Positions 2,523 through 6,327 of a stretch of DNA of 64,000 nt are shown here, in pieces. Each line of letters begins with the position of its first letter. Position 1 is the first letter of the stretch. A program made the translations under genes and the position numbers. The stretch is from Tenggerimyces flavus (GTDB lineage: Bacteria > Actinomycetota > Actinomycetes > Propionibacteriales > Actinopolymorphaceae): positions 3,596,001 through 3,660,000 of the forward strand of contig NZ_JAFBCM010000001.1 in the NCBI RefSeq assembly GCF_016907715.1, written 5' to 3'. Under the pieces are notes generated by a model. That model saw only the letters and a list, made by a program, of their open reading frames with translations. It made no database searches and had not been told where the DNA came from.

Positions 2523-3599
2523 ATGACCGACGTTCTGCACGTCCGCGGTGTCGTGCTGCCCGAGGGCATCGAGCGCGACCTGTACGTGGTGGACGGGCGG
2601 ATCACGTTCTCGCCGGCCGCATCTGCTGTGACGGTCGCCGATCGCGGGTGGATCGTTCCCGGGCTCGTCGACGCGCACTGTCACATCGGGCTCGACGCTC
2701 AGGGTGCGGTCTCGCCGGAGAAGCAGGTGGAGCAGGCGGAGCTGACGCGGGACACGGGGACGCTGCTCGTTCGGGACGCGGGGTCGGCGGCGGACACACG
2801 GTGGCTGGATGGGCGGCTCGACCTGCCGCGCATCGTTCGTGCCGGCCGGCACATCGCGCGGCCGCGCAGGTACATCCGCAACTACGCGGTCGAGGTCGAG
2901 CCCGTCGACCTGGTCGCCGCCGTGGCGGAGCAGGCCGTGCGTGGCGACGGCTGGGTGAAGCTCGTCGGCGACTGGATCGACCGCGACCGCGGCGATCTCG
3001 CGCCACTCTGGCCCGGCGACGTACTGTCGGAGGCGATCACGCGCGCGCACTCGTTGGGTGCCCGCGTGACCGCGCACGTGTTCGGCACCGAGGCGATGCC
3101 CGACCTGGTCGCGGCCGGCATCGACTGCCTCGAGCACGGCGTCGGCCTGACCCCTGACCTCATCGACGCGATGGCCGCCCGCGGCACCGCGCTCGTGCCG
3201 ACGCGCTTGCAGGTGGGGCGATTCCCCGAGTATGCGGCCCGCGGCGAGGAGCGCTTCCCGGCGTACGCCAAGCACATGCTCACCCTGCACGCCCGCTCCG
3301 ACGCGATGCTGGCAGCGGCATACGAGGCGGGCGTCCCGATCTACGCCGGCACCGACGCCGGCGGCGAGTTGCCGCACGGCCTGATCGCCGCGGAGATCCA
3401 GGCCATGGCGGCGTTGATGTCGCCGTTCGACGCCCTGGCGGCTGGATCGTGGCGCGCGCGGGAGTGGCTCGGCCTGAACCCGATGCTGTCGGAGGGGGCA
3501 CCCGCGGACTTCGTCGTGTACGAGACCGACCCGCTCACCGACCTGCGCGTCCTGTCCGCACCGAGCCGTCTCGTGTTGCGCGGCGCCGTCATCCGCTGA
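2523..3599 (+). CDS. Amidohydrolase family protein
   Basis: A 358-aa metal-dependent hydrolase of the amidohydrolase superfamily, predicted cytosolic, with an unknown C-N (or related) bond as substrate. Visible signatures are the metal-binding VDAHCHIG (H52, H54), a WVKLVGDW segment that could carry the bridging Lys, later histidines in VTAHVFGTE and CLEHGVGL, and the catalytic Asp in YAGTDAGGELPHG. The C-terminus returns to a small beta-sandwich (PADFVVYETDPLTDLR), as in imidazolonepropionase-like and dihydroorotase-like members. Start ATG 2523 is probably leaderless. The 3' end overlaps the convergent hydrolase gene by 11 bases. Confidence 0.85.
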   Translation: MTDVLHVRGVVLPEGIERDLYVVDGRITFSPAASAVTVADRGWIVPGLVDAHCHIGLDAQGAVSPEKQVEQAELTRDTGTLLVRDAGSAADTRWLDGRLDLPRIVRAGRHIARPRRYIRNYAVEVEPVDLVAAVAEQAVRGDGWVKLVGDWIDRDRGDLAPLWPGDVLSEAITRAHSLGARVTAHVFGTEAMPDLVAAGIDCLEHGVGLTPDLIDAMAARGTALVPTRLQVGRFPEYAARGEERFPAYAKHMLTLHARSDAMLAAAYEAGVPIYAGTDAGGELPHGLIAAEIQAMAALMSPFDALAAGSWRAREWLGLNPMLSEGAPADFVVYETDPLTDLRVLSAPSRLVLRGAVIR

Positions 3600-4401
3600 G
3601 CGTCCGGCGGAAGAACTCCAACGCCTGAACGCCAAGCCCCTCCCACGGCTCGTTGCCCCATGCCAGATCCACGTCGTCGCGGAGGTTGTGGAAGACCCCT
3701 TCGATGAGATGAAACGTCACGTCCACCTCGTGCGCACGCAGCGCATCAGCGAACCGTTGGACCTGCTCGACCGGCACGGTCTCGTCCAGCTCACCGTGCA
3801 CGAGCAACGTCGGTGGCACCCCGGCATGAACGTGGGTCAACGGACTCGCCTGCCGGCGCAGCTCAGCCGTCGCGTCGCGCGGACCACCGAACAGCGGAGT
3901 GAGGTACTCGTCCTCCCCATCCAGCGGCATCGCCGCGAAGTCCGTCGGTGCACACCGCGCCACGACCGCCTGCACCTCCGCGGTGCTGGCGAGCAGCAGA
4001 GCGAGCTGCCCGCCGGCCGAGTCGCCCATGGCGCCGATCCGATCGGGGTCGATGCCGTACGTCGACGCGTTCGCCCGCAACCACCGCACGGCCGCCCTGA
4101 CGTCGTCCAGCTGCGCGGGGAACGGCGCGCGTCCGCTCAGCCGGTACGTCACGTTCGCGACCACGAACCCGTGCGCGGCGAGCAGCGGCCCGACCCACGG
4201 ATGGAGGCCGGCACTCCGCTCGCCGTTCCGCCACCCACCACCGTGCAGATAGACGACCGCGGGCGCTTGGTTCGCCGGCCGTGGAAGGAGTAGATCCAGG
4301 TACAGAGTGCCCTCCCACACGGGAAGGCCAGGCACGGCGCCATAGGGAACAGCGGCACGAACCTCAACAGCACAAGGCGCTTCAGGCATCGACAGCATCA
4401 T
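3589..4401 (-). CDS. Alpha/beta hydrolase (BD-FAE/esterase type)
   Basis: About 270 aa. It is a cytosolic esterase/lipase-like alpha/beta hydrolase. VYLHGGGWRNG forms the oxyanion hole, GDSAGGQ carries the nucleophilic Ser, LVHGELDETVP the acidic residue, and GVFHNL the catalytic His. The frame is open to 4473, but the first residues from there (MKVPFIQ) are encoded by the arm of the palindromic repeat at 4487-4507. I therefore place the start at the ATG at 4401 (next options 4398 and 4389). No clear ribosome-binding site supports any of them. The gene is convergent with and slightly overlaps the amidohydrolase, and its substrate is unknown. Confidence 0.82.
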   Translation of the reverse strand: MMLSMPEAPCAVEVRAAVPYGAVPGLPVWEGTLYLDLLLPRPANQAPAVVYLHGGGWRNGERSAGLHPWVGPLLAAHGFVVANVTYRLSGRAPFPAQLDDVRAAVRWLRANASTYGIDPDRIGAMGDSAGGQLALLLASTAEVQAVVARCAPTDFAAMPLDGEDEYLTPLFGGPRDATAELRRQASPLTHVHAGVPPTLLVHGELDETVPVEQVQRFADALRAHEVDVTFHLIEGVFHNLRDDVDLAWGNEPWEGLGVQALEFFRRTLSG

Positions 4402-4452
4402 GCCGGCGACGCTAACGAGGCCGATGGACGAAAAGCCAGAGGCCGCCGCACT

Positions 4453-4507
4453 TTGAATGAAGGGCACCTTCATACGAACCTATTGAATGAAGGTGCCCTT
4501 CATTCAA
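4453..4507. repeat. Double-hairpin repeat, left copy
   Basis: Perfect 21-bp inverted repeat: arms 4453-4473 and 4487-4507 with a 13-base spacer containing AACCTATTG. Each arm is itself a hairpin (ATGAAGG-gca-CCTTCAT and ATGAAGG-tgc-CCTTCAT). An inverted relative lies at 4942-4992. Chance reading frames beginning MKVPFIQ come from these arms and should not be used as gene starts. Confidence 0.85.
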
Positions 4508-4941
4508 GACGGGAGGCGGCAGACGGAACCCCCCGGCTTCATCCGAGCCACAAGAGACCGGGGGAAGCCCCACAAGCGACGCAAGTACGGCAACAAACCC
4601 GAGCAAGAAGGAACCTCCCCCGGGACACCTGTTCCGGGGGCAGGGGCGGCGCGTGAAAAACAGGTGGCCGGGCCGGGGCGAGTCAAGGGTCGCAAAGCGA
4701 TCGCGAAGCGACGCCTCTCTCCGTCTGCGCGAAGCCCCCCCAGAGAGGCGCCCTTGACGCGCCCCGGACCGGCCACCACCATCGACCGCCGCCACAGACC
4801 CCGAGAGCCCCAAGCGCCCGGAGAGATCTCAGCGAACACCGCACCAAGACAGCACCAGACCCAGAAGAGCTCCGCCGAGAACCTGAGCCACTCGGCACCC
4901 AACGATGGGAAAACCACAGCACCAACACCCCCCGCGACCTC
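4508..4941. other. Non-coding stretch with a three-way-junction fold
   Basis: No convincing gene in 434 bases. It holds a strong predicted fold. A basal stem of 22/24 pairs (4666-4689 with 4751-4774) encloses one arm closed by GTCGC/GCGAC (4689-4712) and a second arm closed by CGCCTCTCT/AGAGAGGCG (4712-4750). A further hairpin built on CCCCCGGG/CCGGGGG lies at about 4617-4642. Whether it acts as RNA or as DNA is unknown. The flanking double-hairpin repeats suggest that it is either a transcriptionally insulated unit or the interior of a non-autonomous mobile element. Confidence 0.55.
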
Positions 4942-4992
4942 GGATGAAGGGCACCTTCATCCAATAGGTTTGGATGAAGGTGCCCTTCATCC
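4942..4992. repeat. Double-hairpin repeat, right copy (inverted)
   Basis: Perfect 23-bp inverted repeat, arms 4942-4964 and 4970-4992, spacer TAGGT. Read on the minus strand it matches the left copy, including the loop AACCTATTG; the outer stem pair that is A-T in the left copy is G-C here on both sides. It lies 15 bases past the larA-like stop, so it could also terminate that transcript. Confidence 0.85.
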
Positions 4993-5007
4993 AACCCAAG
5001 TGGGCGG

Positions 5008-6327
5008 TCAGGCAGCCGGTGCGGGCTCCATCGGCTGGTGCAGCCGTTCCAACGGCAACGTGCTCGCCGCCTCGGGCATCACCACCACCGAGGCGTCCGA
5101 GCCCTCGCGGGCCAGCGCGGCATCGACCGCGGCCTGCAAGGAAGGCGCGGAGTGGTGCCGCAGACGCTCGGCCGCGTCCACGGCCAACGGGTCGCCGACC
5201 ACGATCACGTGCCGCGTCTCGCCCGGCCGGCGCGCGTAGTACTCGCCGCGGATCGTCTTGCACCGGTCCGAGATCTCCCGCGGCGACAGGTCCAGGTCCC
5301 GCCGGTCGTGCTCGACGAACACCCGGTCGAACGACCACGCAGCCATCTCCCGCTGGAACGCCGACGGCTCGCGCAGCACGGTCGCAGCAGGGTTCACGAA
5401 GATCGTCGTCCCACCCGGCCGCGTCCCCAACGCCGCCAACTCCAACGGCGAAGCCCCAAAGGCCCCCGCCCGCAGGTCGCTAGGCGACGCCAGAACGATG
5501 GACGCCCGCCGCCCGATCTCAGCCCCCCAGACGTGAGCGTCACCCCACGCGACCCCCGCGCGATGCGCCGCCAGGTAGTGCCCGGCGAAGCCGCGGAACG
5601 GATCGCCGTGCCGGTTCACCACGAAGTTCACGATGTACTGCAGCCCCACCAGCCCACCGATGTCGTCGACGTCCTCCCGCGACGGGTTCCCCACGAACGA
5701 CCCGTACTCACACAGCGGCGAGAAGTTGCACGAGTGGTTCCGCAGCACCGTCAGCCAGTACGACACCGCTGGCGTGATCATCTTCGCGCCGCCCTCGTAC
5801 CCGTGCGTGATGTGCGGCCCGATCCGCCCCACCGCGATCCGGAAGTCCGCCTCGGCCACCAGCCGGTTGATCCACACCGGAGTCCCACGCGTCGACGTCC
5901 CCATGTACGTCATCGGATGCTCGACCGCGTCGTGTGGCACGCACCGGTACCGCGACCGCACCCACGATCCCACCTTGCGCGTCAGGTCCTCGTCCGACAT
6001 CGGTGCGTGCACGCCCGAGCCGGTCAGGACGGTCACGTCGGACGTACGTGCGCCCGCCGCCTCCACCGCCGACAGCACCGCGGGCAGCACCCGCGAGGCC
6101 GGCGTCGGCCGCCCCCAGTCGTCGCAGATCACCGCGACCCGCTTGCCGCGCAGGTCGTACGACGACAACGCAGGCGCCCCGATCGGCGCCTCCAACGCGG
6201 CGGACACGATCGACTCCCAGGACGAAGTCGCCGCCGGATCCGCGCTGCGCACGACCTGCACCTGGGACGAGGGAACGGGAAGATCAGCCTCGACGACACC
6301 ATCCTGAACGGGCAAAGCGACTCGCAT
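5008..6327 (-). CDS. LarA-like (lactate racemase N-domain) protein
   Basis: A 439-aa cytosolic protein of the nickel-pincer lactate racemase/DUF2088 family, whose characterised members racemise 2-hydroxy acids. Visible features are DDWGRPTP (the DxTRPTP-like segment), the histidines of GSGVHAPM and VPHDAVEHP, and GPHITHGYEGGAKMITPAV, which corresponds to the family's His/Lys region. The product is probably a 2-hydroxyacid or sugar-acid epimerase/racemase rather than a housekeeping LarA; no larB/C/E cofactor genes are nearby. It starts at ATG 6327 behind GGAGCG, 12 bases after the GntR/LacI regulator gene, so the two are co-transcribed. A paralogue lies at 33840-35126. Confidence 0.8.
   Translation of the reverse strand: MRVALPVQDGVVEADLPVPSSQVQVVRSADPAATSSWESIVSAALEAPIGAPALSSYDLRGKRVAVICDDWGRPTPASRVLPAVLSAVEAAGARTSDVTVLTGSGVHAPMSDEDLTRKVGSWVRSRYRCVPHDAVEHPMTYMGTSTRGTPVWINRLVAEADFRIAVGRIGPHITHGYEGGAKMITPAVSYWLTVLRNHSCNFSPLCEYGSFVGNPSREDVDDIGGLVGLQYIVNFVVNRHGDPFRGFAGHYLAAHRAGVAWGDAHVWGAEIGRRASIVLASPSDLRAGAFGASPLELAALGTRPGGTTIFVNPAATVLREPSAFQREMAAWSFDRVFVEHDRRDLDLSPREISDRCKTIRGEYYARRPGETRHVIVVGDPLAVDAAERLRHHSAPSLQAAVDAALAREGSDASVVVMPEAASTLPLERLHQPMEPAPAA

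Follow-up and report, generated by a model that had tools for sequence, protein, structure and literature searches.

A dispersed non-coding repeat of Tenggerimyces flavus with double-hairpin ends and a cloverleaf that appears to be selected on one strand

Positions 4453–4992 of the window, a stretch of 64,000 nucleotides from the genome of Tenggerimyces flavus, are probably a copy of a non-autonomous, non-coding mobile repeat whose functional part would be a strand-specific cloverleaf. In the proposed organization, two inverted double hairpins would bound a conserved core, and the cloverleaf hairpin in that core, termed H, would be the working part (Table 1). The perfect inverted repeats described in an earlier note on this DNA were recovered at 4453–4473/4487–4507 (21 nt) and 4942–4964/4970–4992 (23 nt), together with the interval of 434 bases between them (4508–4941). 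Their opposite orientation also holds, with 4453–4508 and 4939–4994 forming one larger inverted repeat that is 89% complementary; the loop between the left palindromes is AACCTATTG and that between the right palindromes is CAATAGGTT. The outer pair is A-T on the left (GAATG/CATTC) and G-C on the right (GGATG/CATCC), a compensated change, as had been noticed. Inside the interval, the long stem that had been reported is present (4663–4689/4751–4777, 27 nt, 93%), but the three-way junction has to be revised to a four-way junction, as the stem encloses three arms. Inspection of the open reading frames revealed no DUF222-HNH gene in this copy. The LarA-like protein encoded next to the element has three distant relatives in a search that may omit near records, namely two Chloroflexota MAGs (the closest, 58 and 56% identity) and one archaeon.

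Table 1. Parts of the element at 4453–4992 and the adjoining genes (positions in the window)
Feature	Positions	Strand	Remarks
ORF, alpha/beta-hydrolase-like (by eye)	3589–4473	−	Adjoins the element; true start probably ~4400, outside the element
Left double hairpin	4453–4507	+	17-nt palindromes 4457–4473 and 4487–4503 in opposite orientation, inside the 21-bp inverted repeat; loop AACCTATTG
Conserved non-coding core	4508–4890	−	Sense strand, which is minus in this copy, matches that of the DUF222 genes in class B
Cloverleaf hairpin H	4663–4777	+	Plus is the probable folding strand
5′ half of the near-invariant GTCAAGGG stem	4682–4689	+	Pairs with 4751–4758
Two short arms	4690–4711	+	TCGC-AAA-GCGA (4690–4700), TCGC-GAA-GCGA (4701–4711)
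Third arm, longest and most variable	4712–4750	+	Compensated changes among copies
3′ half of the GTCAAGGG/CCCTTGAC stem	4751–4758	+	
Right double hairpin, GGATG variant	4942–4992	−	Palindromes 4944–4960 and 4974–4990; orientation opposite to that of the left double hairpin
Flanking gene, LarA-like (by eye)	5008–6327	−	Adjoins the element

The palindromes are members of a large family. With up to two mismatches allowed, the palindrome pattern occurs four times in the window against 0.03 expected, and a relaxed form of it occurs 336 times in the 8.52-Mb genome whereas the pattern read backwards is absent. The genome search for the exact 17-mer run, recommended in the earlier note, returned 323 copies, and the exact core motif was found 82 times genome-wide with none for its reversed control. 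A doublet arrangement is common, as 89 spacings of exactly 30 bases were counted among the 239 palindromes examined. In the part of the genome examined, 179 of 229 palindromes have a Watson-Crick pair at the adjacent outer position, compared with a mean of 94 and a maximum of 114 over 500 shuffles of the partners. Using 4400–5020 as a blastn query, 39 other long copies with 80–91% identity were obtained among the best 40 of 218 candidates scored; the left double hairpin is present in 29 of 30 aligned copies, and the left edge is sharp.

Based on what lies beside the core, the 89 core clusters of at least 140 bp that were examined comprise 46 with a left double hairpin (class A), one in which a single palindrome is present, 23 that precede a DUF222 gene (class B), and 19 others. 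The left flanks of the 46 class A copies are similar in only 1 of 1035 pairs. Both double hairpins, as in the window, occur in 13 of the copies examined; the right one is a separable module, which elsewhere stands at another distance, is reduced to a single palindrome, or is absent. The exact 17-mer was not found in seven genomes of the family or in 49 others of the order (0 of 56), and in a sample of the phylum, 5 of the 395 other genomes contain one palindrome each. The dispersed flanks, the 13 composites, and the absence of the 17-mer from the 56 relatives thus support the suggestion of a non-autonomous mobile element. Two further repeat families were observed alongside. One, a palindrome family with GTGATCATGAAG ... 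CTTCATGATCAC and arms about 28 nt apart, is often near the core and also occurs alone (for instance at 303439–303502, 567547–567609, and 4963499–4963562 of the genome). The other consists of GTCAAGGG ... CCCTTGAC hairpins that differ from H in their arms and have the outer stem AATGTCAAGGG; they lie close to some cores near 524411, 1475965, 6513413, and 7932760.

Folded as DNA, H consists of a long outer stem, the near-invariant GTCAAGGG/CCCTTGAC stem, and three arms. The predicted energy of the plus strand as DNA is −51.8 kcal/mol (z −9.4), a value reached by none of 200 shuffles, and the same strand folded as RNA has a z of −8.0. Free-standing hairpins with a wholly different yet complementary outer stem occur at 2710948, 2810575, and 2998545 of the genome, while three cores lack H, all at one common junction, and a fourth core has an inner deletion. 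A covariation analysis, which had likewise been recommended, was performed on 88 copies of the genome itself. Two-sided changes were found at 19 pairs against 9.4 with shuffling and in 211 cells against 71, and the structure exceeded all 500 shuffles on every measure, with related copies counted as independent here and in the other pair and loop counts. In 37 sequences from four genera (the window, nine other own copies, and 27 of 30 hairpins of relatives), 25 pairs are changed on both sides against 16 with shuffling and 171 cells against 48, counts that lean toward structure because the relatives were found using structure-carrying models. On four measures this structure surpassed all 500 shuffles; for the number of pair types it surpassed 487 of them. 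By these alignments, the shape of H is maintained by compensatory change. Both other copies and covariation, the lack of which had been named beforehand as evidence against such an element, are therefore present. Palindrome correction between the stem arms was considered and set aside; it could mimic covariation and should not produce the strand asymmetry described below.

The mismatched pairs differ between the two strands. The 53 distinct cloverleafs of other genomes, obtained from 103 matches by keeping the better strand at each of 59 places and then distinct sequences only, contain 90 A-C and 11 G-T pairs on the aligned strand and the reverse on the opposite strand. The corresponding counts are 52 to 11 in the set of 37 sequences and 52 to 16 in the own copies, where 26 of the 52 A-C pairs come from one column pair. 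Moreover, of 118 triloops, 101 read TNC on the aligned strand with N free, and 109 are closed by C-G, which corresponds to C(GNA)G on the folding strand. The TNC form was found in 58 of 59 and 31 of 33 triloops of two outside subsets, the class subset omitting 3 of 26 sequences that are near-repeats of others. Triloops of the own genome fit less well, with TNC in 136 of 218 and GNA on the aligned strand in 30. Since wobble asymmetry and triloops name the same strand, the plus strand of the window is taken as the folding strand, and a double-strand cruciform is disfavoured because the wobble asymmetry is strand-specific. Predicted energies prefer this strand in two of three examples as DNA and in one of three as RNA. 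Taken from sequence comparison, these data support selection of H as a fold of one strand, the plus strand of the window.

The chemical nature of that strand is addressed by two features. On the folding strand, about 5% of the pairs are G-T, compared with 27 of 274 (10%) in 12 tRNAs from the examined loci; the tRNA pairs were taken from ARAGORN, whose brackets mark allowed pairs only, so that the absence of A-C there is uninformative. A G-T share of about 5% fits either DNA or RNA. The C(GNA)G motif is a very stable mini-hairpin that is best known from DNA, and its prevalence among the loops would favour single-stranded DNA over RNA as the folded form. In PMC4513846, the telomere hairpins of Streptomyces are described as having GCA loops with sheared G:A pairs.

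Cloverleafs are also found well beyond this organism. With the model built from own copies, and at most the best 62 candidates per genome scored, matches were obtained in 10 of 56 relatives besides the own genome and in none of the seven other genomes of the family, with hit numbers ranging from 0 to 52 among other genomes of the order. In several relatives, they are arranged as inverted pairs 450–1000 bp apart. A wider model, for which at most the best 11 or 10 candidates per genome were scored, matched about a fifth of the sampled class (78 of 394 genomes, counting the own one), compared with 5 of 358 genomes from the other classes, the latter being counted on a list from a separate draw of equal size. 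Cloverleafs of other genomes lie outside called genes in 51 of 53 cases, and of the 44 neighbours called within 400 bp, 34 are oriented toward them. Around the class A cores of the own genome, 77 called neighbours were counted within 600 bp, of which 46 are oriented toward the core, sides with no near neighbour being uncounted; this is a slight tendency to convergence, and a weak one at most. The gene calls for the neighbour counts were made with a simple custom script.

Inverted cloverleaf pairs in other genomes enclose short stretches or small gene sets. For instance, one genome (G407) has three inverted pairs whose terminal repeats align over 147 to 262 columns and which contain different genes, namely a GntR regulator in one, an HAD hydrolase alongside unassigned genes in another, and in the third a protein whose TPR match stays below the cut-off. 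The G407 repeat also has a match on a Streptomyces plasmid, covering 86% of the query with 87% identity. Furthermore, the 8-kb plasmid pPA43082 carries a cloverleaf at 4342–4432, which precedes a rolling-circle Rep_1 gene at 4626 by about 190 bp, and cloverleafs precede ArdC genes in Kocuria pCE7 and on one further contig. In blastn searches against plasmids, the window element and a pair element of another genome (G014) had no match, although other cloverleafs did; a search against phages with one cloverleaf as the query was also negative. On a Streptomyces plasmid, a cloverleaf (L285:3999–4089) was seen inside an open frame that carries an IS110 transposase annotation, and at L274:2318–2416 a group II intron match (RF00029, 61 bits) was recorded about 240 bp from a cloverleaf.

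In T. flavus, the core is also associated with genes of the DUF222-HNH type. DUF222 matches number 27 in this genome, all of them free of internal stops, and 23 form one close subfamily, of which the 20 members examined are 76–100% identical to the query protein (the query itself included). The core stands directly upstream on the same strand in all 23 genes, and by eye the sequence common to the subfamily starts about 350–400 bp upstream, core included, and ends just past the stop codon; Pfam assigned both DUF222 and HNH to the one copy analyzed. In one DUF222 copy (L110), part of the shared 5′ region is itself repeated upstream of the gene (5267920–5268370). REP13E12/HNH/DUF222 repeats is the published name for such genes in PMC10589994 and PMC13061034, and the latter paper terms the DUF222-HNH family one without a defined function. 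The window element could accordingly be viewed as belonging to a family of deletion derivatives of a DUF222-HNH (13E12-type) repeat, moved by that protein, and the intact genes with their constant upstream core speak for such an origin. However, no cloverleaf was detected near 30 DUF222 loci of nine other genomes, 18 of these loci being from cloverleaf-positive genomes (best E 0.11 and 0.029), and tblastn of the own DUF222 protein against 74 cloverleaf loci from other genomes gave no match. Additionally, long upstream conservation accompanies DUF222 copies elsewhere in only 2 of 30 pairs, and one of the 23 own copies lacks the cloverleaf itself. The link between core and DUF222 is thus known from the own genome only, being absent at the examined loci of other genomes; a derivative of this kind appears improbable, and the DUF222-HNH protein may be regarded just as a candidate partner of the core.

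Other explanations concern the product or the mover of the repeat. A structured RNA, either a small RNA or a leader, could be made from the plus strand and spread by the repeats; it would likewise be expected to produce wobble asymmetry and covariation, and the stable RNA fold of the plus strand agrees with it. This explanation is nevertheless rather unlikely. Most triloops are of the C(GNA)G type and G-T pairs are about half as frequent as in the tRNAs, no sigma-70-type match appeared in a promoter scan restricted to that one promoter type, and no Rfam family reached its cut-off at the window or the cloverleaf places. Eleven sub-threshold Rfam hits (ten microRNA models and one Staphylococcus sRNA) were taken as chance. 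Class B copies have, by eye, a promoter-like TAGAAT between the core and the DUF222 start, so that the core need not belong to that mRNA. The alternative of the earlier note, an RNA locus insulated by bidirectional terminators, did not gain support either, as a scan for T-run terminators gave a single terminator-like site where 1.4 would be expected, this site does not lie at the palindromes, and the promoter scan was negative. Retention of the repeats as terminators or chromosome-architecture sites serving the host would account for the neighbours facing the cloverleaf in other genomes. It is hard to reconcile with window hairpins that carry no T-run and with hit numbers that vary so widely within the order, and we consider it very unlikely.

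A REP/BIME-like system moved by a RAYT or an IS200-type HUH transposase would resemble the present family in its hundreds of palindromes, which are mostly inverted pairs confined to one lineage, and in its position outside genes, as all 46 class A cores lie outside called genes. It differs in the large multi-arm core between the pairs. Furthermore, a Y1_Tnp (RAYT) profile search of the genome gave no match while its control was positive in 6 of 14 genomes. IS608-like insertion is expected to produce an orientation bias along the chromosome, but core orientation has no replichore bias (p 0.46). Such movement, a reading already weakened by these results, seems highly improbable. A Rep_1 search of the genome gave no match, and the control of that search was also silent.

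Compared with other known systems, the preferred mobile repeat shares with MITEs its short, non-coding nature, terminal inverted units, and many dispersed copies, but no parent transposon was identified in the Y1_Tnp and Rep_1 searches and no consistent target-site duplication was found in the 13 composites, the longest shared flank word being 4–6 nt in 12 and 11 nt in one, with an uncertain outer right boundary. It shares with 13E12/DUF222-HNH repeats the core upstream of the 23 genes and departs from them in the gene-free window copy and in the missing link at the 30 foreign loci. Streptomyces telomere palindromes and parvovirus hairpin ends are similar in their clustered single-strand hairpins and G:A-closed triloops, as described in PMC4513846, whereas the copies here are dispersed along a chromosome. 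Plasmid sso sites and ssDNA promoters offer a likeness in the putative strand-specific fold, with one copy before a rolling-circle Rep gene and two before ArdC genes. Most copies here nevertheless lie in genome contigs, and those of other genomes are found chiefly at the 3′ ends of genes.

Under the mobile-repeat reading, the plus-strand cloverleaf would most simply be single-stranded DNA recognised by a protein, by analogy with hairpin ends, single-strand origins, and Streptomyces telomere palindromes. A trans-acting enzyme might recognise the fold in order to copy or prime the element. The cloverleaf appears to be undescribed so far, because no Rfam model matched at its cut-off and a literature search, with most subscription papers outside its coverage, returned nothing on such repeats in actinomycetes. 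More tentatively, and with parvovirus and Streptomyces telomere hairpins as models, the cloverleaf may be a class-wide, strand-specific site of recognition and priming that acts in the form of folded single-stranded DNA and is a common end of selfish repeats, plasmids, and small gene cargoes.

These findings link the hundreds of palindromes of a single genome with a conserved cloverleaf of class-wide occurrence. The putative strand-specific signal is now directly testable. Furthermore, the DUF222-HNH gene family would acquire, at least in one genome, its first non-coding neighbour.
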